This document shows, piece by piece, positions 27,847-51,865 of a stretch of DNA of 61,787 nucleotides; position 1 is the stretch's first letter; every line of letters begins with the position of its first letter. Source of the DNA: an uncultured Bacteroidota bacterium. GTDB taxonomy: Bacteria > Bacteroidota > Bacteroidia > Flavobacteriales > Flavobacteriaceae. The notes under the pieces are model-generated. The model did not search any database and had not been told where the DNA came from. It saw only the letters and a program-made list of their open reading frames with translations. The DNA lies in the NCBI GenBank assembly GCA_902587325.1, contig CACIKV010000010.1, positions 1-61,787 on the forward strand, in the 5' to 3' direction. Made by a program: the position numbers and the translations under genes.

Positions 27847-28491
27847 TTATGAAAAAGATAAAATAGAACATGGACTACCATCAGTACCCTTTACATACCA
27901 TGGACTAACAACTATTTTTTTAATATTTTTATCTTTCAAACTTAGTAAGTTCATATCTTCAATTATTAGAATTTTATACTCACACAAAAATTTTTCATGA
28001 ATTCTTTTTCCTTCTTCTCTATCTAATTTACTAGTAAGTGAAATCATATCAAAACCAAATATTTTTAAATTCTTAAATTTTTTACAAATAATATCGGCAA
28101 ATGAAGATGGTATAACTGGCTGTGATTCCCAATACTGTCTGCGTTCTCTATTTATACCAAATCCGCTTTTCCATATTAGAAATTCGATATCATCATTAAC
28201 CTTCAATAATTCATTTTCAAAATTAGTGATGTCTGTATCAATAATTCCAATTTTTTCAAATACCCAATCAGATGGCTTATAATCATCAATAGTATTTCCA
28301 TTTATTGAAAAATGTCTAGGGAAATCAATATGAGTTCCAATATGATTTGTTTCAAAAATCCATTTGGATGAATTCGCAGTATCACCATTTTTTATACTTG
28401 TCAAAGGCTGAATTTTTAATTTATTTCTATTTCCGTAAGTTGGAGTTTTTTCGGAGATAGGATATGAAAGTAAATTAATTTTATTTAACAT
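27847..28491 (-). CDS. Cyclase family metal hydrolase (kynurenine formamidase-like fold)
   Basis: The 214-residue protein has the cyclase-family metal motif: H50 and HxGTHxDxPxH-type spacing in GTHIDFPRH (H54, D56, H60). A later region reads FGFDMISLTSKLDREEGKRIHEKF. Family members are Zn/Mn hydrolases of amides and lactones such as N-formylkynurenine, or polyketide cyclases. It overlaps the GT-like gene upstream by 7 bases and lies 15 bases before ugd, so it belongs to the polysaccharide operon. A role such as hydrolysing a formyl or acyl amide or a sugar lactone is possible but not shown. Confidence 0.8.
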   Translation of the reverse strand: MLNKINLLSYPISEKTPTYGNRNKLKIQPLTSIKNGDTANSSKWIFETNHIGTHIDFPRHFSINGNTIDDYKPSDWVFEKIGIIDTDITNFENELLKVNDDIEFLIWKSGFGINRERRQYWESQPVIPSSFADIICKKFKNLKIFGFDMISLTSKLDREEGKRIHEKFLCEYKILIIEDMNLLSLKDKNIKKIVVSPWYVKGTDGSPCSILSFS

Positions 28492-30173: not shown

Positions 30174-30957
30174 TTAATTTGATATGCTCAGCTAATTTTG
30201 AGTAAAATAATTTATGTCCATATATTGAAAAGTGAACACCATCGTGAGCAATTTCTTTCATATTAATTGTCTGCCTATAAATTGGAGTATAGAAGTTTAT
30301 ATTTGAGCTCAAAGAGGCAATTTTTTTAATAAAATGGTTAGACACACTCAATTGTTCAAAAAAACTATCAGGTCTTTTTCTACTAATAGATATTTTTTTT
30401 GAAAATAACATTGTTCCTAGCAAAATACAACTTTTAAATTTTTTTGAGAGATAAGATGATATATCTCTTTCTATATCTCCAAAATTATATGAATATAAAA
30501 ATTCAGATTTTCCATTTGAAAGTGTATACTTTTCTTTTTTAAAAGGCAAAAGATTTAAATCATAAATTGTGTTGGATATTTGCTTTTTGATATCATTTAT
30601 AAAGAAGAGTTTTGATGGAGTATGTTCAGCATAGCCTACATTAGTTATTAAGTATTTAAATTCAATTTTATTAAGTTCCAGAAAGTTAATTAGCGTAATA
30701 AATGTTGTCATCTCTTTTGGTCTACTTATAAACAAAACTTTGTAATTGAAACTAAATAAAAAATGAAATAATAAATCTGTCCAGCAATCATAATTTTGAT
30801 CATCTAGGGTTGAACCTTTAGAATCAGTAAATATTAAAAAATCATAATTATTTTCAATTTTTTTTGAGGAAGAAACAACTCTAAAATCCTTTTTACTTCT
30901 ATCATATCCGGGTCCAAAATTAAATCTGTCTTTAATTTTGTGAAGATTATACTTCAT
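30151..30957 (-). CDS. SGNH/GDSL-type hydrolase-like protein
   Basis: The 268-residue protein shows a Ser motif FTDSKGS (D45, S46) where block I of SGNH enzymes lies. A C-terminal HDGVHFSIYGH gives the catalytic D239-x-x-H242 pair. A middle stretch YLITNVGYAEHT could supply the Asn/Gly oxyanion blocks. SGNH proteins in glycan loci are O-acetyl esterases or acyltransferase partners. There is no signal peptide. It overlaps the inositol-phosphatase-like gene by 11 bases and the following gene by 23 bases. Specificity is unknown. Confidence 0.65.
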   Translation of the reverse strand: MKYNLHKIKDRFNFGPGYDRSKKDFRVVSSSKKIENNYDFLIFTDSKGSTLDDQNYDCWTDLLFHFLFSFNYKVLFISRPKEMTTFITLINFLELNKIEFKYLITNVGYAEHTPSKLFFINDIKKQISNTIYDLNLLPFKKEKYTLSNGKSEFLYSYNFGDIERDISSYLSKKFKSCILLGTMLFSKKISISRKRPDSFFEQLSVSNHFIKKIASLSSNINFYTPIYRQTINMKEIAHDGVHFSIYGHKLFYSKLAEHIKLNGFKYFK

Positions 30958-31687
30958 CTAAATTTGTTTTGGCATTAACACTTAAAACAAAATCTTTGTT
31001 ATAATCTGTAAATTCTATGTCTCCACCTGCACTTTTTGCAATTGCAATACCAGCAGCAGCATCCCAAAGCTTAATATTCTTTTCATAATAGCTATCAACC
31101 TTTCCACACGAATAATATGCTAGTGATAATGATGCTGCACCAAAAAGTCTTACTTTTTTATATTTTTGTAGAAAATCTAACAAAGTATTTAGATTATTTC
31201 TAGAAAAGTCAGAGGATACCGGAAAGCCGGTTGCTATGATTGAATCTGAAATATTTTTTTTAAAACTAACTTTAATCCTTTTATTATTTAACCACGCACC
31301 ATCTCCTACGATTCCAGAGTATATGTCATTACTATTTAAATCTTTAATAACTCCTAAAATCGGATTTTTATTATTCCATAATGCTATTGATATTGCTGAG
31401 AAAGGTATATTCCTAGAATAATTTAAAGTACCATCAATCGGATCAATAATCCAAGTATAATTTTCATTTTTGTTAGGGATAAAGCCTGATTCTTCAGATA
31501 TTACTGAGAAAAAGGTTTGTTTTGTTAAAAAATCAATAATTAGCTTTTCAGATTCTTTATCTCCTTTAATTTTCACATCTCTAATTATATCATGAAGAAC
31601 TTCTTTACTATCATGACTTTTTTTCAAAAAATTAGATGCAATTAAAGCAGCTTTTTTTGCAATGTCCAGTAATTGTTTATTTTCCAA
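30947..31687 (-). CDS. Inositol monophosphatase family protein
   Basis: The 246-residue protein carries the metal-binding motif IDPIDGTLNYSRNIPF (about 84-99) after an SEESG motif. A C-terminal LWDAAAGIAIAKSAGG follows. These are diagnostic of the lithium-sensitive phosphatase family (inositol phosphatase, CysQ, histidinol- and sugar phosphatases). It starts 1 base after the SIS-domain isomerase gene. A sugar-phosphate phosphatase acting after that isomerase, for example on a heptose or other ketose/aldose phosphate, is plausible. The substrate is not determined by the motifs. Confidence 0.85.
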   Translation of the reverse strand: MENKQLLDIAKKAALIASNFLKKSHDSKEVLHDIIRDVKIKGDKESEKLIIDFLTKQTFFSVISEESGFIPNKNENYTWIIDPIDGTLNYSRNIPFSAISIALWNNKNPILGVIKDLNSNDIYSGIVGDGAWLNNKRIKVSFKKNISDSIIATGFPVSSDFSRNNLNTLLDFLQKYKKVRLFGAASLSLAYYSCGKVDSYYEKNIKLWDAAAGIAIAKSAGGDIEFTDYNKDFVLSVNAKTNLDEV

Positions 31688-31688
31688 T

Positions 31689-32297
31689 TTATTTTTTTGG
31701 TTGGATTTTTAAAAACTCATTGTCCGTTGACAAATAATTGATAATAAAGTGATTAAATATCAAATGTAAATCTTCAATTGGTCCATAGTCCTTAACTTGG
31801 TTAGGTGTGAATAACGAGACTGAGCTAATCTTCAACAATTTACCACCATCAAATCCTATAAAACTTATTGTTTTCATTTTATTATTATTAGCATAGTTTA
31901 CTGCATTAATCAAATTTTTTGAATTTCCACTTGCTGAAATACATATTAAAGCATCTCCTTCAGTGATGTTACCCCTCAATTGTTCAACAAATATATCTTC
32001 AAAGTTATTATCATTACTAATTGCTGATATTAATGCATTATTATCACATAAAGATTTTACTTTTGGTCTAAAATCTGAAAAGTATCTTGTGAAAAATGAA
32101 AAATCGGCTTGCATGTGAGTTGCAGTTGAGGCACTTCCACCATTCCCGCATACAAAAACAGTTTTTTCATTTTTAAAACATTCTATCATTATGTCAATAA
32201 CTTTGGTTAAATCGTCAAAATTCACAGATTTAATTAATTTATCAAGCCTTGAATTATAATTCTTAAAATACTTTATTATATTACTTTTTCTATCCAT
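31689..32297 (-). CDS. gmhA: SIS domain sugar-phosphate isomerase (GmhA-like)
   Basis: The protein has a SIS fold with the phosphate-binding CGNGGSASTATHMQADF and the second motif ICISASGNSKNLINAV. The C-terminal DLHLIFNHFI is typical of phosphoheptose isomerases. I place the start at the ATG at 32295-32297 (MDRKSNIIKYF). The in-frame ATG at 32324 would add nine residues and overlap the methyltransferase by 20 bases. GmhA turns sedoheptulose-7-phosphate into D-glycero-D-manno-heptose-7-phosphate. No HddA, HddC or HldE is present here, so heptose activation would need genes elsewhere, or the substrate is another sugar phosphate. Confidence 0.78.
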   Translation of the reverse strand: MDRKSNIIKYFKNYNSRLDKLIKSVNFDDLTKVIDIMIECFKNEKTVFVCGNGGSASTATHMQADFSFFTRYFSDFRPKVKSLCDNNALISAISNDNNFEDIFVEQLRGNITEGDALICISASGNSKNLINAVNYANNNKMKTISFIGFDGGKLLKISSVSLFTPNQVKDYGPIEDLHLIFNHFIINYLSTDNEFLKIQPKK

Positions 32298-32304
32298 AGT
32301 ACAA

Positions 32305-33258
32305 TTATTTTTTCCAAAATCCACGAACTAAATCCCCATAATTTTTTTCGTCAATTAATTTTTGGAGTTCTAAAATTATTTCCTGATTAACTTGAATATT
32401 ATTTATATTCATTATTGTTCCATAATCTAGTCCATTTGTTTTTACTTGAATTTTTTTAAACCCTGATTTTAAATGTAATTCCTCATATGCTTCAACAGAA
32501 TATAGCATAATATGTTGTTCTCCTTGAAGAATCCTAAGCGGATCTTTACCTGAATTACGACAATAATCAACCAAAAATGAATTACCATTAGGAACTTCAC
32601 TGACGAAAATTCCACCCGGTTTCAATAATTGAAAAGCTTTTTTGACAAAATCTTTTGGGTCTAAAACATGTTCAATTACATTCCAAGCCATCACAACATC
32701 ATATTTAATATCAGAATTAAAATCAGCAAAATGTACTTCATGAACATTATGCCCTCTACTTTCAAGCCACTTGATTGCCGCTGGATTTAATTCAACAACA
32801 TCGCAATCCCAATCATTATCTTTAAATACATCAATTAATTCACCAACACCACATCCGATATCTAAAATTTTTCCTTTAGTGACAGAATAATTTAATATTT
32901 GAGAGTATTTTTTTTCACCCAATAATTTCTTTCTTTTATCAAAAAAGGGAATCATACTTTTTGTAAACATTTCAGAATAATATGAGTCCGTATATAGTTT
33001 ATCAATATATTCATCCTTTAATCTAGGTGTAACATATACAGAATTACAATTTTTACATTTAACATGAATGAAACCATTTAACTTAAAATATTTATGTTTT
33101 TGATTAGAGTAGCAATGTGGACAATTCACATCTTCTGTGTATTCTTCTTTCAAATCACCTGAGCCATTGTAATAACTTGATATAATTTCAGCCCAAGCTT
33201 TTTTAACCTCTTTAAAATCAGGCTTAACATCACTAGCGTGTACTATTTTATCTTTCAT
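32305..33258 (-). CDS. SAM-dependent methyltransferase with N-terminal zinc ribbon
   Basis: The 317-residue protein has a zinc-ribbon-like module CPHC...CKNC (C46, C49, C68, C71). A class I methyltransferase domain follows, with the SAM motif LDIGCGVGELIDVF (about 132-145), a VVELNPAAIKW acidic loop and AWNVIEHVLDPKDFV. This architecture is common among C- or O-methyltransferases of deoxysugars in surface glycan loci. The SAM supply genes metK and ahcY head the same gene run. It lies 5 bases after the Gfo/Idh-type gene. The methylated atom is not known. Confidence 0.82.
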   Translation of the reverse strand: MKDKIVHASDVKPDFKEVKKAWAEIISSYYNGSGDLKEEYTEDVNCPHCYSNQKHKYFKLNGFIHVKCKNCNSVYVTPRLKDEYIDKLYTDSYYSEMFTKSMIPFFDKRKKLLGEKKYSQILNYSVTKGKILDIGCGVGELIDVFKDNDWDCDVVELNPAAIKWLESRGHNVHEVHFADFNSDIKYDVVMAWNVIEHVLDPKDFVKKAFQLLKPGGIFVSEVPNGNSFLVDYCRNSGKDPLRILQGEQHIMLYSVEAYEELHLKSGFKKIQVKTNGLDYGTIMNINNIQVNQEIILELQKLIDEKNYGDLVRGFWKK

Positions 33259-33263
33259 ATTTT

Positions 33264-34343
33264 TTATTTATCAGAACTGTAGATGTCGTGAACTAATTTC
33301 ATAACATTTAAAGCATCTTCACTACTTCCAATTTCTACTTTTTTATTTTCTAAAATACATTTAACAAAATCATCAATTTCATTTTTCCATGATTCATCTC
33401 TTAAATAATTAATTTCTTCTTTACCTAAAGATCCTACATTTGAGTTAGGAATTTTTTTAATTATTATTAATCTTTCTCTTCCATAGCTTTTAGATCCTGA
33501 TAATATACCACTCAATTCTAAATAACCTTTCTCAAATGAAATTTCTAATCTAAAACGATGTTGCCAAAGAGTTCCTGACGAATGAATCATGGCTACAGTT
33601 CCATTTTTACTCTTCATGATTGAATATGCATTATCTTCAACATCATGATTCCAGTAGTCATTCGATACAAAACTTTTAATTTCGTCGAAATCTCCACAAA
33701 AAAATCTGAATAAATCTAACATGTGAATTCCCTGATCTAAAAGAATTCCACCTCCAGAGTATTTACTCATTGACCTCCACTCTTTTTTAACCGGAACAAT
33801 TGAACTTTTTCCATAAACACCTTTCATATTTATTATTTTACCAAAGATTTCACTATCAATAATTTTTTTTGCTTTAATCACTGAGCCATGATAGCGATGA
33901 TTAAATCCGTACTTTAACTTTAAACTTTTATATTTATTTTCAACTTTAATGACTTCCTCAATATCTTGAACAGTCCTTCCAGGTGGCTTTTCACAAAAGA
34001 CATGAGCACCATTTGATAATGCAATCATAGTAACTTTTGGTGCTAGATAATTTGGTAGAGATACAAATACAATATCATATTCAATATTCTCTAGTAAATC
34101 AGCGTAATCACTAAAGTACATTACACCGTTAATCATTTTTCCAGATTCTTTTTTCTTTTTTGACATTTTTTCAATGTCATCATAGTTATTATATATACTT
34201 CCATTGCCATCCCTAAATTCCTTATCTAAAAATCTAACATCACAAACTGCAACAACATTTAAATTTTTATGTAAATCTATATAGTGATGTCTTCTTTTAC
34301 CCACAATTCCATATCCTATAATTGCAACTTTAAACTTTTTCAT
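33264..34343 (-). CDS. Gfo/Idh/MocA family sugar oxidoreductase
   Basis: The 359-residue protein begins FKVAIIGYGIVGKRRHHYID (NAD(P)-binding Rossmann motif). It has the family's CEKPPGRTVQDIEEV motif (EKP with cofactor- and substrate-contacting Lys) near residue 120. GVYGKSSIVPV and GGGILLDQGIHMLDLFRFFCG follow in the C-terminal alpha/beta domain. It would oxidise or reduce a sugar or sugar nucleotide hydroxyl/ketone. It overlaps the upstream 2-hydroxyacid dehydrogenase by 4 bases and belongs to the HpaI-KdsB block, so it may tailor the ulosonic acid or its precursor. The exact substrate is unknown. Confidence 0.87.
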   Translation of the reverse strand: MKKFKVAIIGYGIVGKRRHHYIDLHKNLNVVAVCDVRFLDKEFRDGNGSIYNNYDDIEKMSKKKKESGKMINGVMYFSDYADLLENIEYDIVFVSLPNYLAPKVTMIALSNGAHVFCEKPPGRTVQDIEEVIKVENKYKSLKLKYGFNHRYHGSVIKAKKIIDSEIFGKIINMKGVYGKSSIVPVKKEWRSMSKYSGGGILLDQGIHMLDLFRFFCGDFDEIKSFVSNDYWNHDVEDNAYSIMKSKNGTVAMIHSSGTLWQHRFRLEISFEKGYLELSGILSGSKSYGRERLIIIKKIPNSNVGSLGKEEINYLRDESWKNEIDDFVKCILENKKVEIGSSEDALNVMKLVHDIYSSDK

Positions 34344-35266
34344 TTTGTGAAATATTTAACTAAGTGATCAATAGATGCCATACCCATTCCTTTTACTGAT
34401 TCAATTGAATTTCCAGCTATGTGAGGGGTACATATCAAGTTTCTAATTTGACATAATTTTTTAAATGGTTTGGGTTCATCAATATAAACATCTAATGCGG
34501 CACCACTTATTAATTTATTTTTGAGAGCATAATACAATGCATTTTCTTCAATAATACCCCCTCTTGATGTATTGATAATAAATGAAGTGTCTTTCATCAA
34601 ATTAAACTCCTTATTTGAAATCATATTAATGGTTGAATTATTCAATGGAGTATGAATAGTAATGATATCACAAGATTTTAGAATAGTTTCTTTACTTACT
34701 AATTTTATACCATTAGCTTTAGCATAGTTTGATAAATCAACTATGTCGTTAGCCAAAATTTCGCAATTGAAAGGTTTTAAAAGGTTTACTACTTCTTTTC
34801 CAATAAAGCCCAATCCAATAATACCAATTTTCTTATTTCTAATTTGAAAACCTCCATTTTTAACCCAACTATAGTTATACTTAAGTTCATTTGAAGAAAT
34901 ATATAGATTTCTAGCTAGCATAATCATAAAACATACAGTTTGTTCAGCTACAGAATATCTATTAACACCACCAACCCAACCGATTTTAACATTTCTATTT
35001 TTACATGAATCAATATCAATATTATTCAGACCAACGCCATATTTAGAAATAAATTTTAATTTTGGTAATTGCTTTAACACATTATCATTAATATCTTCCA
35101 CTCCAATAATAGCACCATCAGCATCAGAAAGATAATTTATCAAATCATCATCCTTAAATCTTATAAATTTTTCATTAACCAACGAATTAGGAAAAAAATT
35201 TTTTAATTCAGAAACTAAAAATTCGTTTTTTGAGAATGATATGCTAGTTACTTTAATTTTATACAT
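34340..35266 (-). CDS. D-isomer-specific 2-hydroxyacid dehydrogenase (SerA-like)
   Basis: The protein of about 308 residues has a lid/catalytic domain with ISKYGVGLNNIDID and an NAD domain with KIGIIGLGFIGKEV. It contains INTSRGGIIEE and the catalytic Arg/Glu/His regions, ending in CTPHIAGNS. It is shorter than SerA and has no ACT domain. I prefer the ATG at 35264-35266 (MYKIKVTSIS). A longer form from 35290 overlaps the KdsB-like gene by 32 bases. Members interconvert 2-keto acids and D-2-hydroxy acids. Beside an HpaI-type aldolase and a KdsB-like enzyme it may make or trim a hydroxy- or keto-acid building block. Confidence 0.85.
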   Translation of the reverse strand: MYKIKVTSISFSKNEFLVSELKNFFPNSLVNEKFIRFKDDDLINYLSDADGAIIGVEDINDNVLKQLPKLKFISKYGVGLNNIDIDSCKNRNVKIGWVGGVNRYSVAEQTVCFMIMLARNLYISSNELKYNYSWVKNGGFQIRNKKIGIIGLGFIGKEVVNLLKPFNCEILANDIVDLSNYAKANGIKLVSKETILKSCDIITIHTPLNNSTINMISNKEFNLMKDTSFIINTSRGGIIEENALYYALKNKLISGAALDVYIDEPKPFKKLCQIRNLICTPHIAGNSIESVKGMGMASIDHLVKYFTK

Positions 35267-36029
35267 TGTAGGAAATAAATATTTCATCATCTTTCATGAG
35301 AGAATCAACTTCAAGAAAGTCTTCATAAGTATCAACACCTTTACTCTCATGTGTGGTTTGAACTAACTTTATTTTAATATTATTTTCAATTAATCTATTC
35401 ATGTCAACAGATTCAATAATTTCAAGATTAGTGGGATTTAGTTTAATAAAATTCAAAATAGATTTTCTTGAAAAGGAGATTAATCCTAGTTGCTTGTAAT
35501 AACTAATCATTTTTTTATACATCTTATTAGATGGAATTGGTTCCCTAGAAAAGTATATTGCATTTGAATCAACATCCATAACAGTCTTCACTACATTTCT
35601 GTTCTCGATTTCACTCTTTTTTTGAATTTCATTAATTAAATTACAAACTTGCAGATTATTGTCGTTTAAAAATGGGTTAACAAGAGAATCTAGCATTTGA
35701 GGATGAATCAAAGGTTCATCACCTTGAATCATAACTATAACATCAAATTTTTTTTTTCTTATTTTTTCAATTTCAATTAATGCTTCAGCACAGCGTTCGG
35801 TTGCTCTTTCATGACTGTTTTTTGTTAAAATAACATTTAAATTCAATGATTTACAAAAATCTATAATTTCTTTATCACAAGTAGCTATGAAAACTTCATC
35901 AATTTTTTTTGATAAAAGAGACCTTAAATATATATGTTCAATCATCGCTTTTCCTTGTATTTTTACAAGAGGTTTATTAGGAAATCTTGATGATGCCATC
36001 CGACATGGAATTATAGCTAAAACATTCAT
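35259..36029 (-). CDS. KdsB-type CMP-ulosonate cytidylyltransferase
   Basis: The 256-residue nucleotidyltransferase has IIPCRMASSRFPNKPLVKIQGKA (written here as two overlapping KdsB motifs: PCRMASSRFPNKPL and IQGKAMIEH). Others are VIVMIQGDEPLIHPQM, YFSREPIPSN, a helix with IESVDMNRLIENN and GVDTYEDFLEVDSL. All align in order with KdsB, which makes CMP-Kdo from Kdo and CTP. Because it lies inside a polysaccharide operon next to an HpaI-type aldolase, it may activate a Kdo-like acid other than core Kdo. It overlaps the aldolase gene by 4 bases. A housekeeping kdsB elsewhere is expected but cannot be seen. Confidence 0.85.
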   Translation of the reverse strand: MNVLAIIPCRMASSRFPNKPLVKIQGKAMIEHIYLRSLLSKKIDEVFIATCDKEIIDFCKSLNLNVILTKNSHERATERCAEALIEIEKIRKKKFDVIVMIQGDEPLIHPQMLDSLVNPFLNDNNLQVCNLINEIQKKSEIENRNVVKTVMDVDSNAIYFSREPIPSNKMYKKMISYYKQLGLISFSRKSILNFIKLNPTNLEIIESVDMNRLIENNIKIKLVQTTHESKGVDTYEDFLEVDSLMKDDEIFISYNV

Positions 36030-36748
36030 TTTTTAAATTGATCTTTTATTGCTGATCCAAAAAATAAAATATCTGAACTAAATGCTATAAAATTATAACC
36101 TTCAGAAAATCTTTTATAAACCTCCGATATTTTGGGCTCTATGACATGAATACCTATATATTTTTTATGATTTTTAGCAACATTAATGTAGTGCTTTAAC
36201 ACATTTTGAACATCATCATCATTATAATCTCCAGGTTTACCCATCGATCCTGATAAATCATATGGACCAATAAAAGTACCTGAAACACCATTATATGAAA
36301 TTATATCCTCCAGAATATTAATTGCATCAATATGTTCAATTTGCAAAATTAATTTTACTTCATCATTAATCCTATTTTTATAATTTTCAAAATTTAAACC
36401 AAAAGATTGGGCTCTAGCTAATCCAACTCCTCTTTGTCCTTTTGGAGGATAATAAACTGAGTTAACAGCTTGTTTCACATCACTCATGGTTCTGATCATA
36501 GGAACAATAATTCCATCTGCACCTGCATCTAATGCTCTTTTAATTATTAAACCACTATTTTCGCCAACCCTAACATAAGCTTTTTTATTTTTACCCTGAA
36601 TTATAGATATTAAAATTTGCATATTACGGTAATCAATTACAGAATGCTCTAAATCAATACAAATCCAATCAAAATCAAATTCACATATTATTTCGGTTAT
36701 AGAAGGTTCAGGTAGTGTTACCCATGTGCCTAAATTTTTTTTATTCAT
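36026..36748 (-). CDS. HpaI-type class II pyruvate aldolase
   Basis: The 240-residue TIM-barrel protein matches HpaI/GarL aldolases. It has DLEH (32-35, catalytic His H35), R60 in AYVRVGEN, the flexible KGQRGVG loop (103-109), metal-binding E138 in LQIEHIDA and D164 in GPYDLSGSMG (161-170). These enzymes reversibly join pyruvate with an aldehyde to give 4-hydroxy-2-keto-3-deoxy acids. It overlaps the KdsB-like gene by 4 bases and follows the LIC12162-family gene by one base. Making a 2-keto-3-deoxy sugar acid for CMP activation is the attractive reading. HpaI proteins are usually catabolic, so their presence in this operon is notable. Confidence 0.85.
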   Translation of the reverse strand: MNKKNLGTWVTLPEPSITEIICEFDFDWICIDLEHSVIDYRNMQILISIIQGKNKKAYVRVGENSGLIIKRALDAGADGIIVPMIRTMSDVKQAVNSVYYPPKGQRGVGLARAQSFGLNFENYKNRINDEVKLILQIEHIDAINILEDIISYNGVSGTFIGPYDLSGSMGKPGDYNDDDVQNVLKHYINVAKNHKKYIGIHVIEPKISEVYKRFSEGYNFIAFSSDILFFGSAIKDQFKK

Positions 36749-36749
36749 T

Positions 36750-38405
36750 TTAATCTAAATTACTAACAAAATTACTCCATTGTTTAAAAAAATTAGAATC
36801 CTTTAAGGCATAATTCTTATTAAATTTTTCAAGACTCACTTGTAAATTTCTATCATTCCACCAGAATTCTATACTATCATAAATTTCATTCAATTTTTTT
36901 ACTGCATTTTCAGCAGAATTTTGAATTATGCCATGTCCTTTTAATTCTTCGATTATTTCTAAAATATTTTCATCAAAAAAATTACAATCATAATTCCAAA
37001 ATGCAATAGTAGGTATTTTTGCTGAAAACAATATATTCATAGTTGTACCTGGACCATCAATAAGAATTATCTTTGACTTCATCGTTTCAATGTGTAAATC
37101 CCCTTTAATAATATCAATTTTTTCTTTAAACTTTCTTTCAAATTCTAAAGATAATGCTCCACCTCCTGATTGAGAAAGTGGTGGTCTATATTTAAAGTAT
37201 TTTTTTAATTTTTTATCTAAAGAATTATAGATTCTAAAAAGATTATTTTGACGATCAACGTTTTCTGAACTTAAATTGATTGAATTAATTCTGAATGAGT
37301 ATGGATTTACATTAGATTCAATAAAAATTATATTATTATTTTGATTTGAAAAATTGAATTTTGAAAGATATGGTGAAGGAAGTGGAACAACATTATCAGT
37401 ATACCTGTTTTTTTTCCATCCCCAGCTAATATATTGCAGTGAATTAGAATATTCTACAGAGTTAACTGCAGCATGAACAGCAACTGAACCGTATACTCCT
37501 CCATGCTGAGATAAAATCAATGAATTTCCTAACTCCACCTTTTCGGCAATTTTTTGTTTTAACTTTTCATTATAATACATGTTTGAACCACAGCATATTA
37601 TATATCCATTTTCTTTTCTTGATTTATTTCTTAAATTTATTTTTTTAAAACAGTTTGGTAATAATTTTTTAGCATAAATTTCCCAATCAAATTCTGAATT
37701 AAGTTTAAGTTGACTTTCTTTTTTAGCTAAATTTTCTACACTAAAATTTTTATTTTTCTTAAAATATAATTTGCATTGCAAAAAAATTGAGTTTTTTAAA
37801 CCTAAACCTTTAACAGAGTAAAATGGAATTAATTCAATTAAATAATTATAAATTTTTTCCTTAAAAGAAAGGTCTCTTTCAATTTTATTATATTTATTTT
37901 TTTTGGATATGTATTCAACGTTCCAATTATCTGGCTTTAATTTCTCAATAATTCTAGAAATTATCCAAAAATTAAATATCTTATTCATTGATCCATTTCT
38001 TATAAAATCTAAAGTATCTTCAAATTCCCAGTTAATATCATCTTTCATTAGAACTACATCAAACTCTTTATTTTTATGATTTTTTATAATATTTTTTAAG
38101 CTATCTATCCTTAATATTATAAGATGAACAAATGCGTTTATCCAAGGGTTTAATACGATCTTTAAATATTTTTTTGAAAATTTTTTGCTGTTATTGGGTT
38201 TAAGATTAAGTAAGAAGAAATCTAATAAGTATTCAATAATATCGTTTGCATTATTTTCTAAAGATCGAATATCGTTCAATGATAAATATTCTGAGATTTC
38301 ACTAAGATTATAATCTTTAGGATTTTCAAAACACCAAGGACCAAAAAAGATATCATTTGAGGTTGGTTTTAATGGTGAATCGATTATCCATAATCTATTT
38401 CTCAT
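36750..38405 (-). CDS. LIC12162 family putative transferase
   Basis: The 551-residue protein matches the LIC12162 family from Leptospira O-antigen loci. It has an early FFGPWCF (20-26) and a C-terminal half containing IICCGSNMYYN (269-279), LSQHGGVYGS (298-307) and YISWGW (325-330). A late region reads SAKIPTIAFWNYD. The C-terminal half looks GT-B-like. No member's function is firmly known to me; a transferase acting on a CMP- or UDP-sugar is the usual suggestion. It sits between the HpaI aldolase (1 base away) and an AAC(3)-type gene (6 bases), so it may be the transferase for the acid made by that block. Confidence 0.82.
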   Translation of the reverse strand: MRNRLWIIDSPLKPTSNDIFFGPWCFENPKDYNLSEISEYLSLNDIRSLENNANDIIEYLLDFFLLNLKPNNSKKFSKKYLKIVLNPWINAFVHLIILRIDSLKNIIKNHKNKEFDVVLMKDDINWEFEDTLDFIRNGSMNKIFNFWIISRIIEKLKPDNWNVEYISKKNKYNKIERDLSFKEKIYNYLIELIPFYSVKGLGLKNSIFLQCKLYFKKNKNFSVENLAKKESQLKLNSEFDWEIYAKKLLPNCFKKINLRNKSRKENGYIICCGSNMYYNEKLKQKIAEKVELGNSLILSQHGGVYGSVAVHAAVNSVEYSNSLQYISWGWKKNRYTDNVVPLPSPYLSKFNFSNQNNNIIFIESNVNPYSFRINSINLSSENVDRQNNLFRIYNSLDKKLKKYFKYRPPLSQSGGGALSLEFERKFKEKIDIIKGDLHIETMKSKIILIDGPGTTMNILFSAKIPTIAFWNYDCNFFDENILEIIEELKGHGIIQNSAENAVKKLNEIYDSIEFWWNDRNLQVSLEKFNKNYALKDSNFFKQWSNFVSNLD

Positions 38406-38411
38406 TAAAGA

Positions 38412-39224
38412 TTATTTCTGATAAGGTTTAATTTTAGGTTCATACTCCAAATAATTATATATGTCATCATTGAAAAAGGTAATAGCCTCTTTATAAAAAT
38501 CTTTCATTTTAAAACACCATAACTTCAATCCAGTTTCATGGATGTTTTCGTAAAGTAATTTTTTTTCTTTTAAAGAATCAAAATAATGTTCATTAAGTAA
38601 AACTCTTTTTTTTATATCAGAACCTACATACATAACTGACTGATAAAAAAAATCTTTTGTAATCTTCCCATTTTTTAAAATAGGATGGCAAAATTCTTTG
38701 GTATATCTGTATGGTACACCATAAATTGTTTCAATATGGTGGATTAAAGTCACAGCTTTAGAAGGATGTAAGCCAAAGTTTAATTGTTTTACATCCATAT
38801 CTAAAAAATGGCTCCAAGGAGATTCTATTCCAAATGCATGTTTTGAAACTTTTTTTAAGATATTTGCATCTTTTCCAATACCAGAAACTGACCAAAACGG
38901 ATGATTACTTCTAACAGAATCTGGTAATTTCCTTAAATATTCTGCAAAAGCCCCCATTCTATCAGAGGGAGTTTTTTTTATATCAAATGGGATTGAGGTA
39001 TTACAAAGATTCATGGACGCAGATGGTGAAAAAATTGTTGAATCTTTACCAATGACACTAAAAATAGAATCTAATAAAATTTCCATTTTTCTATTTTTAA
39101 ATATCCTTAAGCGACCTAAAGATGCAAGGTTTCCAGTTACAAATACTTTATCTCCATGAGATAAACCTAAATTTTTAAGTAATTGAACTAATTCATTCTT
39201 GAATTTTTTTTCTATTTCACTCAT
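38412..39224 (-). CDS. AAC(3)-family N-acyltransferase
   Basis: The 270-residue protein belongs to the antibiotic N-acetyltransferase fold. It has the N-terminal GDKVFVTGNLASLGR (24-38) and FSPSASMN (65-72), then RSNHPFWSVSGIG (105-117). The catalytic-region IHHIE (161-165) is followed by GVPYRYTKEF. In polysaccharide loci such proteins acylate amino sugars rather than drugs. The gene overlaps the CitE-like gene by 8 bases. With a CoA-ester lyase-like neighbour, an unusual acyl-CoA donor is possible. It should not be read as an antibiotic resistance gene. Confidence 0.82.
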   Translation of the reverse strand: MSEIEKKFKNELVQLLKNLGLSHGDKVFVTGNLASLGRLRIFKNRKMEILLDSIFSVIGKDSTIFSPSASMNLCNTSIPFDIKKTPSDRMGAFAEYLRKLPDSVRSNHPFWSVSGIGKDANILKKVSKHAFGIESPWSHFLDMDVKQLNFGLHPSKAVTLIHHIETIYGVPYRYTKEFCHPILKNGKITKDFFYQSVMYVGSDIKKRVLLNEHYFDSLKEKKLLYENIHETGLKLWCFKMKDFYKEAITFFNDDIYNYLEYEPKIKPYQK

Positions 39225-40143
39225 TTTCGTCTAAATATTTTTTTGCTGCTAAAAATTGATGTGGTGCAATAAATCTATGACTACTAACCCCAAAGGATCT
39301 TTTATTTGATCTACCTTCGATAAAATCATTAATAATATTTTTAGCAATTTTAATTTTTTCGGAATTACTAAAATCATATTTAATCAACTCTAATTTAGAA
39401 TATTTTAATCTATAAGATAATGCTAGAGTTGAATTAACACAACAATGCCAAATTTCTTTTAAATCTGCTATTTTTTCTGTATAAAAATTACATTGCCAAA
39501 ATAATTTTTCGTTGTGAGGAAATGGGAATGGAGATCCAACAAACGATTTTTTATATTTTTTTAAAAGAGTTGTAATATCATTTATAATCTCCCAATATTT
39601 ATCATGATTTGGATCTAGAAAAGGCCAAAATTCACAACTGTAAGAAAAATCAAAATTTCCATAGTGAACTCTCTTTATTAAATTTTCTTTATCATGACTT
39701 AAGATATTTTCTAGATTTTTAAATCCCTCTTTTGTTTCAATCATAGGAACAATCTCAATATTATTGAAGTATTCATTTAAATTGGCTATTTCATCAAATG
39801 ATTCAGTCATCGGCAAAAAAATTCCATCAATTTTAAAATTATTCTTAATTACTATTTTAATGATTGATAAATCCAAATTATAAAATTCGGTTTTTGGAGA
39901 ATTGATTCTTACATATAATTTAGAGTTGGTAATTGGTAACTTATAGTTAGATATTGTCAAAAGACCATCACGTGCAATTTTTTTTAATTCTAAATTATGT
40001 TTACTGTCAAAAATATCCTGAGCGCTATCCTCTAAGTCCAAAATAACATTTCTATTTTTTGAAAATAATTTTTTGGTTAAAGCGTATGATGCCAGTGGCC
40101 TTGTTAAAGGTAAATATTGAATTAAAGTAATGTTATTATCCAT
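39217..40143 (-). CDS. HpcH/HpaI family, CitE-like lyase
   Basis: The 308-residue TIM-barrel protein has VILDLEDSAQD (about 33-43), YVRINSP, the metal-ligand IPMIETKEGF and VHYGNFDFSYS in place of the usual 'GxxDL' motif. That fits the citrate lyase beta/malyl-CoA lyase branch rather than HpaI. Members cleave or form 3-hydroxyacyl-CoA or keto-acid bonds. It overlaps the AAC(3) gene by 8 bases and the DUF4910 gene by 8 bases. A role in making the acyl group used by the AAC(3)-type enzyme is my inference. The altered GNFDF motif may signal a changed substrate. Confidence 0.75.
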   Translation of the reverse strand: MDNNITLIQYLPLTRPLASYALTKKLFSKNRNVILDLEDSAQDIFDSKHNLELKKIARDGLLTISNYKLPITNSKLYVRINSPKTEFYNLDLSIIKIVIKNNFKIDGIFLPMTESFDEIANLNEYFNNIEIVPMIETKEGFKNLENILSHDKENLIKRVHYGNFDFSYSCEFWPFLDPNHDKYWEIINDITTLLKKYKKSFVGSPFPFPHNEKLFWQCNFYTEKIADLKEIWHCCVNSTLALSYRLKYSKLELIKYDFSNSEKIKIAKNIINDFIEGRSNKRSFGVSSHRFIAPHQFLAAKKYLDENE

Positions 40144-41425
40144 CTACTTTTTCAATTAATTTAGCTTTGACTAGTTTTTCAGTTAAACTATATAATTCCC
40201 AAATTGGTACATTCATAATATCAGCAATTTCAAGCAAACTGTTATGACCATCTGAATAGGCAATAAGATTTTTTAAGTTTTTTACTTCGTTAATAGTTTT
40301 CTTTGTAGAAATTTGTGGATAGAGACCCCTTTTACCAAGCTGAGGCTCACACAAAACTAAATTTTTATAAGTGTTATTTTTTTCAAAAATATCAATAATT
40401 TTTGTATATAAATCGAATGATCCCTGAAATCCAGTTGGGCTTATAAAATCTAAATTGTCTAATGATGTATGATATTCATCAAACTCTCCATATTTCGATC
40501 TCATTACAGAACAAAAAGGTATGTCAATACCAGGTGATGAATATTGTCTTTCATCACTTCCTCTATCAAGAAAAGAATATAATTTATACTCAATATTCAT
40601 TTTGTCTAAAACATGTCTTGCAACTTGATCAGCTATTGAGTTTTTAAATTTTGATTCTAAAAATGAATAACACAAATCATCTCCAACGCAAGTCAAAATA
40701 AAACCTGCTTTAGTTCTTCTTCTCATTAATTCTAAATTTTTATGTAAATAAGCAACAGCTCCAATTGTTTCTGGAATAAAAATAAATCTATATGAGTATT
40801 TAGGTTTTTTAGCTTTTTCTAAATATTTAATCAAAAATGTTGCAAGTGATGGACCAGATAAATTATCATTTGCTAGAGATGGATGACATATATACGTAGA
40901 AAAAACAATTTCTTTTTTGCTTTTACCGCTAATTAAAACCTCTCCATAAGTTAATGATCCTTTTTCTAATGATGCATCAATTTTTACATGATAGAAATCT
41001 TCATTAATATTTTTTCTCTGATTTTCAGAAATACAAAAACCCCAATTTTTTTGATAATATGATGTTATGTATGGAATTGCATTAGGCATATCACTTATAG
41101 AATACAAGTGGTTTTTTAATTCAGTTAAACTTATTTTTTTATCTACTGGAATTGAATAGCCCATTAAGTGGACATTGTTTTTTTTAAAATCAATAATTCT
41201 ATTTCCACTCAAATCTTCGATAAAAGCATCTTTCACATTCCACTCTAAAGGGATGTGCCAATCAAAGCATTTTGTCTTTGATTCAATTTCTGTTACATCT
41301 AAATTACTTTGAATTTGTTTTTGAATTAACCCCAAAGTTTGTCTAACACCATCACCAGTTATACTTCTGTTTATACCAAACAAAGAACTGCAAAAGTCGT
41401 AAATTTTTTTACCTTCTTTACTCAT
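40136..41425 (-). CDS. DUF4910 aminopeptidase-like protein with C-terminal winged helix
   Basis: The 429-residue protein begins with the DUF4910 signature SLFGINRSITGDGVRQTL. It has an inserted beta domain (about 60-165). The M28-like metal site then reads CHPSLANDNLSG (H181, D187) with FIPETIGA (E219) and SSPGIDIPFCSVMRS further on. The last 80 residues form a winged-helix-like tail (SDGHNSLLEIADIMN). Such proteins are frequent in surface glycan loci, often beside nonulosonic acid genes, but their reaction is not established. An amide hydrolase acting on an N-acylated or aminoacylated sugar is plausible. It overlaps pseI by 8 bases. Confidence 0.83.
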   Translation of the reverse strand: MSKEGKKIYDFCSSLFGINRSITGDGVRQTLGLIQKQIQSNLDVTEIESKTKCFDWHIPLEWNVKDAFIEDLSGNRIIDFKKNNVHLMGYSIPVDKKISLTELKNHLYSISDMPNAIPYITSYYQKNWGFCISENQRKNINEDFYHVKIDASLEKGSLTYGEVLISGKSKKEIVFSTYICHPSLANDNLSGPSLATFLIKYLEKAKKPKYSYRFIFIPETIGAVAYLHKNLELMRRRTKAGFILTCVGDDLCYSFLESKFKNSIADQVARHVLDKMNIEYKLYSFLDRGSDERQYSSPGIDIPFCSVMRSKYGEFDEYHTSLDNLDFISPTGFQGSFDLYTKIIDIFEKNNTYKNLVLCEPQLGKRGLYPQISTKKTINEVKNLKNLIAYSDGHNSLLEIADIMNVPIWELYSLTEKLVKAKLIEKVDG

Positions 41426-42479
41426 CTAAATTTATTTGTTCTAATGAAACTCTTGTTCCTCTCAAAACATCCAAGTTAATTTTTTTTCCAATTATTTTAT
41501 TTAAAAACTTTGGATGTAAACCAAAACCCGGTCTAATAGACTTTATATCTTTTGCAGAAATAATTTGATTTTTTTTTAAATCATTTACAAAATATAAAGA
41601 TCTACTAAAATTTCTTCCTTTTTGTTGTTTTTTAGTTAAATCAAATGTTTTAATTCCTACTGACTTTGAAGCTTTTCTGACATTATCAACCATAAGTTTA
41701 AATTCGTTCTCATTTAAAGAAAAAGAAGAATCTGGACCACCTATACTCTTATCAATAATAAAATGTTTTTCAATTACTTTTGCTCCAAGTGAAGTTGCAA
41801 CAATTGGTGCAACATAACCCTCCGTATGATCAGATAAACCAGTAAAATATCCATATTTTTCTCTTAGATGTTTTATCATTGTAAGATTAGCTTCATCAAT
41901 TGGAGCTGGATAACTTGATGTACATTTAAGTAAAATTATTTGATTATTACCAGCCTTAATGCATGTTTCTATTGCTAAATCGATATCATTTTCGGTTGCG
42001 ATTCCTGTTGAAATTATAATAGGTTTTCCTTTTTTTGCAATATATTCAATCAAGTTAACATCAGTTATTTCAAATGATGCGATTTTGTAGGCAGGAGAAT
42101 TAAGAGTTTCTAATAGATCAACAGCTGAGTTATCAAATGGAGAAGAAAAGCATACTAAACCTTCATCCTTAGCAACTTTGAATAATTTCTCATGCCAATC
42201 CCAGGGTGTATATGCTTCTCTATATAAATCATGTAATTTTCTTCCATTCCAAATTGTTCCTTTGATAATAAAATCTTTACTATCACAATCTAATGTAATG
42301 GTATCTGGTGTATATGTTTGTAATTTTATACAATCAGCTCCAGCTCTTTTTGCTGACTTAATAGTATTGATTGCATAATCTAATGAACCGTTATGATTTG
42401 CTGACATCTCTGCTATTATAAAAACATCACTTTGAGCATTAATCTCAAAATCACTTATTCTAATTGAATCACTTTTCAT
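41418..42479 (-). CDS. pseI: Pseudaminic acid synthase
   Basis: The 353-residue NeuB-family synthase matches the PseI branch. It has MSANHNGSLDYAINTI, DLYREAYTPWDWHEKLF and FSSPFDNSAVDLLE. YKIASFEITDVNLIEY, LKCTSSYPAP and GGPDSSFSL follow. The C-terminal SAF domain (about 285-353) contains IRPGFGLHPKFLNKIIGKK. PseI condenses PEP with 2,4-diacetamido-2,4,6-trideoxy-L-altrose to give pseudaminic acid. The gene overlaps the GNAT gene by 11 bases. The PEP and metal-binding regions are intact. Confidence 0.93.
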   Translation of the reverse strand: MKSDSIRISDFEINAQSDVFIIAEMSANHNGSLDYAINTIKSAKRAGADCIKLQTYTPDTITLDCDSKDFIIKGTIWNGRKLHDLYREAYTPWDWHEKLFKVAKDEGLVCFSSPFDNSAVDLLETLNSPAYKIASFEITDVNLIEYIAKKGKPIIISTGIATENDIDLAIETCIKAGNNQIILLKCTSSYPAPIDEANLTMIKHLREKYGYFTGLSDHTEGYVAPIVATSLGAKVIEKHFIIDKSIGGPDSSFSLNENEFKLMVDNVRKASKSVGIKTFDLTKKQQKGRNFSRSLYFVNDLKKNQIISAKDIKSIRPGFGLHPKFLNKIIGKKINLDVLRGTRVSLEQINLDE

Positions 42480-42924: not shown

Positions 42925-43481
42925 TTTTGGTGTTTTGTATAAGTCCTGATATCATAGAATCTATTTCCATGATTATAACCATCTTTTAAATGACTTTCCA
43001 AATAATAATTACTTGATTCAATTATTGGATATAATTTAGGTCTTAAATCATAGACGACTAAATATAATTTCTGTAGACTTAATTCGAAAAAACCTACTTT
43101 TTCAATTAAAATTAAAAAATGAGTCCAATATGTCTCAAAATAAGTTTTTTCTAATTTGGTACTCATCAAAAAAGATATTTCAGATTTTTTACTTTTCCAA
43201 TCAATATGAACAAGTCCACCATATCCCACAAAAACATCTTTATGAAAAAAAGAAAATAATATTTGATCTGGCTTTGACTGACTAAATTGTTTTTCAATTA
43301 CCTCATTGAAATACAGGTCTTGTGCTGATGTTGTAAGTTTTTTCTTTTGCCTCAAGTGGTATATTTGTTCATTTCGCCAATTCATAATTTTGAAACGATC
43401 TGAAACTCTGATTGGAATTATTCTAAACTCATTCTCACTAAATATTTGTTTATTCAAACATTTATATCTACTTGTTTTCAA
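42921..43481 (-). CDS. GNAT-family acetyltransferase, candidate PseH
   Basis: The 186-residue protein begins with the pattern RIIPIRVSDRFKIMNWRNE followed by HLRQKKKLT, seen in acetyltransferases of pseudaminic acid loci. It continues with YGGLVHIDWKSKKSEISFLM and FELSLQKLYLVVYDLRP, a GNAT-like core whose acetyl-CoA loop is less clear than in its neighbour. It lies between pseF (14-base overlap) and the second GNAT (4-base overlap). PseH acetylates the 4-amino group of the PseC product; either GNAT could do this. Confidence 0.72.
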   Translation of the reverse strand: MKTSRYKCLNKQIFSENEFRIIPIRVSDRFKIMNWRNEQIYHLRQKKKLTTSAQDLYFNEVIEKQFSQSKPDQILFSFFHKDVFVGYGGLVHIDWKSKKSEISFLMSTKLEKTYFETYWTHFLILIEKVGFFELSLQKLYLVVYDLRPKLYPIIESSNYYLESHLKDGYNHGNRFYDIRTYTKHQK

Positions 43482-44157
43482 AACTTAGTTTATATTTTAT
43501 TTCAGCAAGCCTCCAATCACTGTGATTGTCAATATCCTGCGACATATTTTTATCAATTATTATAGCCTCAGTATTATCAGTTAAAATCGTTTTACTTTTT
43601 ATAAATTTTTCCACATTTATTGTATAAAACATACCGGCATCATGAAAATTAATTGAGAAATCCTGAGTTCTTTTTGTAATTAAATTATCAGAAAATTTAA
43701 TTTTATTGTTATTAGTAACTGAAAAACTTCTTTGAATTGGATGTGAAAATTCTACAATAGGCAAAACTGTATCAACATCTTTTTTTTGAATGATTTTTAA
43801 TGATTTTTTTAGTAAATCAATAGTTACAAAAGGTGAACATGGGTAAATACATGTTAAATACTTTATTTTACCAATTTTGTTAGAAAATTTTGATATAAAT
43901 TCAAGTAATGCATCAGATGTTGTTGCTAAGTCATTACTATTTTCTAGTGATCTAGTAAATGGAGTTTTTGCGCCAAATTTATTAGCTATATCTTTAATTT
44001 GTTTTGAATCAGAAGAAACATAAACACCATCAAACAGATTCGACTTTAAAGCAATATTAATGGGATAAAAAATTATTGGCTTCCCCAAAAAATCTTTAAT
44101 ATTTTTATTTGGTATTCGTTTACTTCCTCCTCTAGCAATAATTACAGCAATTTTCAT
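43468..44157 (-). CDS. pseF: Pseudaminic acid cytidylyltransferase
   Basis: The 229-residue protein has the CMP-NulO synthetase motif IIARGGSKRIPNKNI at its N-terminus. FLGKPIIFYPI, VSSDSKQIKDIA, the LATTSDALLEF region and CIYPCSPFVTIDLL follow. It activates pseudaminic acid as CMP-Pse5Ac7Ac using CTP. It overlaps pseC by 4 bases, which fits PseF rather than NeuA or LegF. A second CMP-transferase domain exists at 49833-50987, so the two probably serve different acids. Confidence 0.88.
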   Translation of the reverse strand: MKIAVIIARGGSKRIPNKNIKDFLGKPIIFYPINIALKSNLFDGVYVSSDSKQIKDIANKFGAKTPFTRSLENSNDLATTSDALLEFISKFSNKIGKIKYLTCIYPCSPFVTIDLLKKSLKIIQKKDVDTVLPIVEFSHPIQRSFSVTNNNKIKFSDNLITKRTQDFSINFHDAGMFYTINVEKFIKSKTILTDNTEAIIIDKNMSQDIDNHSDWRLAEIKYKLSFENK

Positions 44158-45329
44158 TTGCTTTTTTTTATGTAATCTTTGATGATTTTTATTGTTGAGT
44201 AAATTTGATCATTTGTCAAAGATGGATAAAATGGAATAGAGATTGTTCTATCATAATATTTTTCACAATTTGGAAAATCTCCTCTTTTATATCCATAATT
44301 TTCACTGTAAAACTTTAATAAGTGAACTGGAATATAATGAATCATTGGTAAATAATTTTTTTCTCTCAAGAACTTAAAAAAATCATATCTGTCGAAAAAA
44401 TTATTTTTCTTTATTTGAAGAACATAGATATGAAAGTTACTGTCAACAAAATCAGATTCAAATGGTAAAATTAATTCATCAATATCTTTAAGTTCTTCAT
44501 TATATATATTTACAATCTCTCTTCTTCTCTTCTTAAATTTTTCCAATTTCTTTAATTGACTCAGGCCTAGAGCCGCCTGAAACTCATTCATTCGATAGTT
44601 ATAACCTAAACTTTCCATTTCATAAAACCATTCTCCAATTCTTTTTTTACTTGAAAACATTTCCTCCCTTCTATCTATGCCATGTTTCCTTAGAGACTGT
44701 AATTTTTTAAAAAGTTTTTTATCATTTGTTAATACAGCACCTCCCTCTCCAGTGGTAATATGCTTTACAGGATGAAAACTAAAAGTAGTCATATCAGCGT
44801 GAACACCATCCCCACAATAATGTGTTTTATCATTATATCTGTAGCATGAGCCTATTGAGTGAGAACCATCTTGAATTATCTTTAATTTATATTTATCTGC
44901 GATCCTTTTTATTTCAACAATGTCACATGGATGACCTCTAAAATCGATTGGCATTATTGCTTTAGTATTCTTGGTAATCTTCTCTTCAATTTTAGTTACA
45001 TCAATATTAAGTGTGTTTAAATCTATATCAACAAAAACAGGTTTTGCTTTTTGATATAAAATTGCATTTGATGTTGCACAAAAAGTCATTGGACATGTAA
45101 TTATTTCATCACCTTCTCCTATATCCAATGCTGCTAATGCAATATGTAGTGCAGCTGTACCACTAGAAACAGCAACTCCAAAATTTGCACCTGTGTAAGA
45201 TGCAAGTTCACTTCCAAAATCTTCACAGAGTTGACCTTGTGTAATAGAGTATCTTTTTAATGATTTAACTACACAATCAATGTCATTATTATCTAGATAA
45301 TGATATCCATATGGTATTTTATTTTTCAT
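44154..45329 (-). CDS. pseC: UDP-4-amino-4,6-dideoxy-N-acetyl-L-altrosamine transaminase
   Basis: The 391-residue DegT/DnrJ-type PLP aminotransferase opens PYGYHYLDNNDIDCVVKSL, typical of PseC. SSGTAALHIAL (55-65) binds the cofactor phosphate. TCPMTFCATSNAI, QDGSHSIGS and the Schiff-base lysine K189 in FHPVKHITTGEGG follow. It aminates C4 of the PseB/CapE product. It overlaps wzx by 4 bases and pseF by 4 bases. With no pseB beside it, its 4-keto substrate most likely comes from CapE (19177-20184) or from a pseB outside the window. Confidence 0.93.
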   Translation of the reverse strand: MKNKIPYGYHYLDNNDIDCVVKSLKRYSITQGQLCEDFGSELASYTGANFGVAVSSGTAALHIALAALDIGEGDEIITCPMTFCATSNAILYQKAKPVFVDIDLNTLNIDVTKIEEKITKNTKAIMPIDFRGHPCDIVEIKRIADKYKLKIIQDGSHSIGSCYRYNDKTHYCGDGVHADMTTFSFHPVKHITTGEGGAVLTNDKKLFKKLQSLRKHGIDRREEMFSSKKRIGEWFYEMESLGYNYRMNEFQAALGLSQLKKLEKFKKRRREIVNIYNEELKDIDELILPFESDFVDSNFHIYVLQIKKNNFFDRYDFFKFLREKNYLPMIHYIPVHLLKFYSENYGYKRGDFPNCEKYYDRTISIPFYPSLTNDQIYSTIKIIKDYIKKSK

Positions 45330-51864: not shown

Positions 51865-51865
51865 T

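Follow-up and report, generated by a model that had tools for sequence, protein, structure and literature searches.

An HpaI-type aldolase paired with a KdsB-type CMP-transferase: a candidate aldolase-based route to a CMP-activated ulosonic acid

The aldolase–CMP-transferase pair

The stretch of DNA analysed here (the window; 61,787 nucleotides, positions 1 to 61,787 of contig CACIKV010000010.1, assembly GCA_902587325.1, from an uncultured member of the Flavobacteriaceae) carries a gene for a class II aldolase of the HpcH/HpaI type, directly followed by a gene for a cytidine monophosphate (CMP) transferase of the KdsB type. The genome is a draft of 1,475,136 bp with an estimated completeness of 84.8%. 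In order of transcription, all on the minus strand, the window holds a pseudaminic-type set, several other genes, a LIC12162-family transferase, the aldolase, KdsB, a D-2-hydroxyacid dehydrogenase (HADH) and a Gfo/Idh oxidoreductase, followed downstream by genes for a methyltransferase, a GmhA-like SIS protein and an IMPase-family phosphatase; a KynF/cyclase-family hydrolase is encoded further on (Table 1). A first-pass annotation had reported that the aldolase and KdsB genes overlap by four bases and that the overlaps after them are similar. The first overlap is confirmed and the HADH and Gfo/Idh genes also overlap by 4 bp, but the overlap between KdsB and HADH is 32 bp as called.

The family assignments of that annotation hold for both proteins, the aldolase matching PF03328 and the CMP-transferase matching PF02348, PRK13368 (268.6 bits, cut-off 255) and TIGR00466 (159.5 bits, cut-off 155.2), and the aldolase motifs that it named, DLEH (E34, H35), R60, E138 and GPYDLSGSMG (D164), are present. 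The aldolase scores far below the equivalog cut-offs for HpaI (TIGR02311, 174.2 against 368.8 bits), GarL (160.4 and 159.8 against 393 and 406.75) and RhmA (133.9 against 441), and its substrate is therefore not given by annotation. AlphaFold models, in which both proteins look intact, have a mean pLDDT of 93.8 (aldolase) and 95.0 (KdsB). The PDB entry nearest to the aldolase model is 4mf4, with HpaI (4b5w) and GarL (1dxe) also matched (TMq 0.88-0.90), and its identity to family members among the structure matches listed is 22-32%; the entries nearest to the KdsB model are 1h6j/1gqc, the E. coli capsule synthetase of CMP-3-deoxy-D-manno-octulosonic acid (CMP-Kdo). A match to the window aldolase at 1e-20 is absent from all 20 listed genomes of the same genus (completeness 55-85%), and the locus seems to vary within the genus.

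Recurrence across genomes

Relatives were collected by scanning the genome_contigs set with a five-protein alignment, and all counts out of 80 given below refer to the best 80 of 505 confirmed relatives. Neighbouring CMP-transferases were counted either with the window KdsB and PseF as probes or with probes from each neighbour family. The window probes detected a KdsB on the same strand within 2.5 kb in 58 of the 80 loci, and within 250 bp in 52; the loci without a near KdsB hold a NeuA/PseF-like enzyme within 2.5 kb (13) or at 3.2 kb (2), or gave no match (7). With family-representative probes, a same-strand KdsB- or NeuA-type CMP-transferase was found in 79 of the 80, the exception being L027, from a Wildermuthbacteria metagenome-assembled genome (MAG). 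The linkage seen at the single locus is therefore conserved.

The KdsBs partnered with an aldolase carry the labels Bacteroidota, Chlorobiota, Ignavibacteriota, Kryptoniota, Nitrospirota, Pseudomonadota, Campylobacterota, Elusimicrobiota, Omnitrophota, Bacillota and Aminicenantes, together with the archaeal labels Woesearchaeota, Hadarchaeum and Methanoperedens. Many of the relatives are MAGs, in which misbinning is possible; named strains include Nitrosomonas europaea ATCC 25978, Syntrophomonas wolfei JCM 14075 and Hydrogenovibrio sp. SC-1. Because the adjacency is found across phyla, we judge it, on this recurrence, to be more than chance. In an HpaI tree of 59 rows the kdsB-partner label changes 5 times, against 17.8 in shuffles, so that KdsB- and NeuA-type partners have been swapped a few times.

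According to the first-pass annotation, a KdsA-like synthase paired with this kdsB in relatives would speak against an aldolase-based route. KdsA occurs in none of the 80 loci, a result of limited weight for reasons given below, and NeuB-type genes, present in ten, are always more than 2.5 kb away from the aldolase. No description of the aldolase–CMP-transferase partnership was found among the titles and abstract openings listed from the open-licence PMC literature, where coverage was mostly partial; the enzyme families themselves are already known.

The aldolase active site

E34, H35, R60 and E138 are invariant in all 81 aligned rows, and D164 is present in 80 of 81, that is, in every intact row, the sole gap being the shortened L037. 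At that locus (10001-10708), the aldolase gene of a MAG chromosome is interrupted by an in-frame stop. The five residues align with Glu46, His47, Arg72, Glu151 and Asp177 of AbHpaI, in which Glu151 and Asp177 are metal ligands and His47 and Arg72 catalytic (PMC8560999). Fold, PF03328 score, metal ligands and catalytic His and Arg thus place the protein among the class II aldolases of the HpcH/HpaI family (HpaI, GarL, YfaU/RhmA, SwHKA), from which its genomic setting, in glycan loci and next to a CMP-transferase, sets it apart. On the basis of this setting, a catabolic function was discounted.

Two further differences lie in the active site itself. Leu214, part of the mainly nonpolar aldehyde pocket of AbHpaI (PMC8560999), is replaced by His201 in all 80 intact rows, a substitution that may be compatible with a polyhydroxy aldehyde. 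In AbHpaI, the loop that follows RGVG makes contact with the aldehyde from the neighbouring subunit (same source); here this loop is 1-2 residues shorter in the alignments made, and the monomer model gives it low confidence (block values 80 and 63). The position of AbHpaI Val236, occupied by Ser in the window and mostly by Leu in relatives, adds nothing to the case.

Partnered and housekeeping KdsB

Partnered KdsBs were compared with housekeeping KdsBs, drawn from 30 probed loci taken from best family matches; one (L158) was recognised as L068's partnered copy, leaving 29. In a tree from a quick search, without bootstrap, 59 partnered sequences and 30 housekeeping sequences (the 29 plus the window genome's own copy) fall on opposite sides of one branch (SH-aLRT 100), and the split is unchanged when the 241-aa housekeeping KdsB of the window genome takes the place of a 41-aa fragment.

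Residues were counted in 38 partnered rows (21 of the 25 Nitrosomonas-type rows, being near-copies, were left out) and in the 29 housekeeping rows that remain when the window genome's own copy is excluded. D209 is found in all 38 partnered rows against Glu in 29/29 housekeeping rows, and M210 in 38/38 against Gln in 27/29, at positions which we take to be Kdo contacts in E. coli KdsB. R10, R15, K19 and D104 (of QGDEP) are invariant in both groups (38/38 and 29/29), as is, with one housekeeping exception (28/29), D233. By our reading of the motifs, K19, D104 and D233 of the window protein would correspond to K19, D95 and D219, the phosphate and metal residues of Aquifex KdsB (PMC3149649). The substrate motif tells the two groups apart: RHIGVYAYR, assigned to substrate binding in Pseudomonas aeruginosa KdsB by docking and alignment (PMC7717453), has its His replaced by Gln180 and its Tyr by Ile184 in all 38 partnered rows, while both are kept in 29/29 housekeeping rows. 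Fold, family score and CTP/Mg residues thus make the partnered protein a KdsB-type cytidylyltransferase; its separate tree placement and the replaced His and Tyr set it apart from the housekeeping enzymes that serve Kdo.

Genomes without the usual synthases

One alternative to a new sugar acid is that the aldolase makes Kdo itself, from pyruvate and D-arabinose, the cassette being a second route to ordinary CMP-Kdo. It draws on the conserved KdsB fold and CTP-site residues, on CMP-Kdo synthetases being the nearest PDB entries, and on the presence of an isomerase and a phosphatase: like the Kdo pathway (KpsF/KdsD, KdsA, KdsC, KdsB, WaaA), the window combines an isomerase, a carboligase, a phosphatase and a CMP-transferase, with activation of the KdsB type. 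The proposed carboligase is an HpaI-type aldolase and not the phosphoenolpyruvate (PEP)-dependent KdsA. Against this alternative, the cassette KdsB has lost substrate-motif residues that all 29 housekeeping enzymes keep.

A set of 25 Nitrosomonas-type genomes bears on this point: 23 carry the title Nitrosomonas, one is a Nitrosospira, and one is a Proteobacteria MAG whose KdsB groups with them. Each contains exactly one KdsB match at 1e-20, which we take to be the partnered copy, since each locus holds one. KdsA over its cut-off is found in none of the 25, nor is WaaA at 1e-5 or KpsF over its cut-off, with weak partial KpsF matches in five; a published survey of the nine genes for Kdo2-lipid A detected lpxK alone in N. 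europaea (PMC3087551). The window genome, for its part, has its own KdsA, KpsF, WaaA and second, housekeeping KdsB on other contigs. KdsA is thus missing from the 80 loci and, over cut-off, from the 25 genomes, and in the window genome lies elsewhere. Given the absence of WaaA and of KpsF over cut-off in Nitrosomonas-type genomes and the separate Kdo set of the window genome, we rank Kdo synthesis low, as an unlikely explanation.

Slightly less probable still is that KdsB activates an ulosonate from a NeuB-type synthase, with the aldolase supplying the same glycan with a side group or an intermediate unrelated to that ulosonate. The cassettes share with the NeuB-type nonulosonate pathways (those for Neu, Pse, Leg and Kdn) their occurrence in surface-glycan loci and, in some cases, a PseF/NeuA-like CMP-transferase, and the ten loci with NeuB-type genes and a strong NeuB match (at least 238 bits) in 6 of the 25 Nitrosomonas-type genomes would suit this explanation. 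Against it, no NeuB lies beside the pair within the 2.5 kb stated above, both NeuB-type synthases of the window are paired with a CMP-transferase of their own (Table 1), and a clear NeuB is absent from 19 of the 25 Nitrosomonas-type genomes, 11 having weak matches and 8 none. All 11 weak matches share stretches with KdsA-family matches (100-109 bits against a cut-off of 314), and we take them to be putative 3-deoxy-D-arabino-heptulosonate 7-phosphate (DAHP) synthases. Three genomes (G203, G218, G222) have no KdsA- or NeuB-family match at 1e-5. Two Balneola genomes (G173, G209), whose cassettes pair the aldolase with NeuA, have no match to KdsA, KdsB, NeuB or WaaA, KdsA being searched in G173 at 1e-20 only.

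Companion genes

The first-pass annotation had described a block of four genes, ending with the HADH and Gfo/Idh genes. All four are as named, but the recurring block is larger and also takes in a phosphatase, an isomerase and a lactonase-like gene. A same-strand HADH is found in 67 of the 80 loci. Of the non-Nitrosomonas loci, 40 extend for 8 kb or more in both directions; among these, 25 have a short-chain dehydrogenase/reductase (SDR) without Gfo/Idh, 9 a Gfo/Idh without SDR and 3 both, the SDR class, found at a 70-bit threshold, possibly including unrelated epimerases of the same loci. A KynF-like hydrolase is present in 24 of the 80 loci, a 6-phosphogluconolactonase in 29, both in none and neither in 27; 21 of the 29 are Nitrosomonas-type near-copies. 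Two 6-phosphogluconolactonases that were checked exceed the TIGR01198 cut-off of 124.45 (159.2 and 142.8 bits), and a KynF-like hydrolase or a 6-phosphogluconolactonase occupies the same position behind the SDR in several loci from Bacteroidota, Balneola and Bacteriovoracaceae. An AroB-related putative phospholyase is found in 10 of the 80 loci, with HAD and IMPase phosphatases absent in 10/10.

The companion slots thus look interchangeable (SDR or Gfo/Idh; 6-phosphogluconolactonase or KynF-like hydrolase; HAD or IMPase phosphatase), and the pattern suggests that a phosphorylated sugar is oxidised, opened and dephosphorylated, with no order of steps implied. That this HADH branch makes the ulosonate by itself (from sugar phosphate via lactone and aldonate to 2-keto-aldonate), leaving the aldolase to edit or recycle, is improbable and the weakest of the explanations considered: dehydrogenase, lactonase-like enzyme, HADH, phosphatase and CMP-transferase do occur together in 18 of the 40 non-Nitrosomonas and 21 of the 25 Nitrosomonas-type loci, with the two checked lactonases over cut-off, but aldolase and CMP-transferase form the most constant pair (the 79 loci above), and in 22 of the 40 loci one or more of the other classes is missing.

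The AroB-related phospholyase was also noted in its own right, at L023 (14447-15535) and ten other loci, with one member checked and over the TIGR04425 cut-off; it recurs with the aldolase–CMP-transferase pair, HADH, Gfo/Idh, a FabG-like SDR and mostly SIS.

Elsewhere in the window, a NeuB-type synthase gene overlaps that of a CMP-transferase fusion (49833-51909), a third CMP-ulosonate set in addition to the cassette and the pseudaminic-type set. Just upstream of the cassette lies a second gene of the HpcH/HpaI superfamily (39217-40143; PF03328 28.8 bits, weak RipC match), flanked by an Antibiotic_NAT-family gene (38412-39224) and a gene with a weak, partial PbfA match (40136-41425).

Table 1. 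Features of the cassette and of other sugar-acid genes in the window
Feature	Coordinates	Strand	Evidence or remark
HpcH/HpaI-type class II aldolase, 240 aa	36026..36748	-	PF03328 105.5 bits, over cut-off
KdsB-type CMP-transferase, partnered branch, 256 aa	35259..36029	-	PF02348 over cut-off
4-bp overlap, aldolase stop / CMP-transferase start	36026..36029	-	Open reading frame coordinates
D-2-hydroxyacid dehydrogenase (HADH), phosphoglycerate-dehydrogenase-like	34340..35290	-	PF02826 163.7 bits; TIGR01327 (phosphoglycerate dehydrogenase) 211.7, below cut-off 454
Gfo/Idh/MocA oxidoreductase, dehydrogenase slot	33264..34343	-	PF22725, PF01408; recurs with HADH and SIS
S-adenosylmethionine methyltransferase, possible tailoring enzyme	32305..33258	-	PF13489 87.5 bits
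GmhA-like SIS sugar-phosphate isomerase	31689..32324	-	TIGR00441 109.5 bits, below cut-off 209.45; PF13580
IMPase-family phosphatase	30947..31687	-	PF00459 158.9 bits
KynF/cyclase-family hydrolase, proposed lactonase slot	27847..28491	-	PF04199 38.9 bits; TIGR03035 32.2, below cut-off
LIC12162-family surface-carbohydrate transferase	36750..38405	-	TIGR04331 225.0 bits, at cut-off 225
PseI, pseudaminic-type synthase	41418-42479	-	497.4 bits, over cut-off
PseF, CMP-transferase of the PseI pair	43468-44157	-	241.3 bits, over cut-off
PseC-like, pseudaminic-type set	44154-45329	-	Over cut-off
Second NeuB-type synthase	50977-51909	-	TIGR03569 187.1 bits, below cut-off; PF03102
CMP-transferase/KdsC-type (KDN-9-phosphatase-like) phosphatase fusion	49833-50987	-	TIGR01670 125.9 bits, over cut-off

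Proposed pathway

To our knowledge, the sugar acid is built by a PEP-dependent synthase in all known CMP-ulosonate pathways. The cassette described here probably represents an aldolase-based CMP-ulosonate pathway for a surface glycan, distinct from Kdo synthesis, a reading to which we assign a probability of about 0.7. It builds on the pairing and its recurrence, on some genomes in which alternative synthases are missing, on the conserved catalytic residues and on the altered substrate motif of KdsB. The first-pass proposal of a CMP-ulosonate made through a pyruvate aldolase in place of a PEP synthase thereby gains support as a genomic inference from the linkage and from the KdsA-free loci and Nitrosomonas-type genomes.

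We infer the reaction and the direction in which it runs, the sequence of steps and the product as follows. The HpaI-type, metal-dependent aldolase would join a polyhydroxy, sugar-derived aldehyde to pyruvate or a closely related compound such as hydroxypyruvate, in place of a KdsA- or NeuB-like, PEP-dependent synthase. The resulting 2-keto acid would close to a ring, and the adjoining KdsB-type enzyme would couple its anomeric hydroxyl to CMP, yielding a CMP-activated 2-ulosonic acid that would go into a surface glycan. The companions (dehydrogenase, lactonase-like hydrolase, HADH and phosphatase) would most likely prepare the aldehyde, or finish the product, from a phosphorylated sugar, and in cassettes of the window type a sugar-phosphate isomerase would join them.

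Several points weigh against this proposal. The HpcH/HpaI fold, as the structure matches show, also holds non-aldolases such as the SbnG citrate synthase. An HADH is not a simple consequence of pyruvate-plus-aldehyde chemistry. KdsA over its cut-off is present elsewhere in 42 of 81 genomes, and many genomes besides the six Nitrosomonas-type ones hold a NeuB-type synthase; the 11 weak NeuB matches (28.6-44.0 bits) exceed the Pfam gathering cut-off of 22.1. Absences in MAGs may reflect incompleteness, although the same absences repeat in isolates. The lack of KdsA in the cassettes carries little weight alone, because KdsA lies within 1.5 kb of only 4 of the 29 housekeeping KdsBs. HpaI and KdsB distances are correlated (r 0.50, with 0 of 5000 permutations as high; 35 rows, including one Nitrosomonas and the shortened L037 row), as expected for partners, but shared descent can contribute in part.

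A control with distant HpaIs is not clean. Eight loci with HpaIs of 26-35% identity were probed over 1.5-kb flanks with the window's KdsB and PseF; a CMP-transferase match was absent from seven and present in one, L012, so that the partnership extends past the close clade. At L012 (1453-3538) the distant HpaI gene (27% identity) overlaps that of a PseF-like CMP-transferase, which in turn overlaps a HAD-family gene, and the group is preceded by a long open reading frame whose product, on visual inspection, looks similar to a DmpG/HMGL-type aldolase; it is possibly an independent cassette of like kind.

A wider version of the proposed aldolase-based pathway is more tentative, and we regard it as possible though doubtful. 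In it, the cassettes would form a widespread, PEP-synthase-free class of CMP-ulosonate pathways in many bacterial phyla and some archaea, the class II aldolase would build an undescribed ulosonic acid, and HADH and phosphatase would perhaps supply hydroxypyruvate as the nucleophile, so that the product would keep its 3-hydroxyl instead of being 3-deoxy. Hydroxypyruvate is accepted by some enzymes of the HpcH/HpaI family, as stated in one study (PMC7610986).

The aldolase and the KdsB-like protein form an enzyme pair that is directly testable. If the proposed pathway is correct, the name "CMP-Kdo synthetase" given by family models would be wrong for such proteins, for example in ammonia oxidisers without a Kdo pathway, and many cell surfaces would carry an unrecognised acidic sugar.

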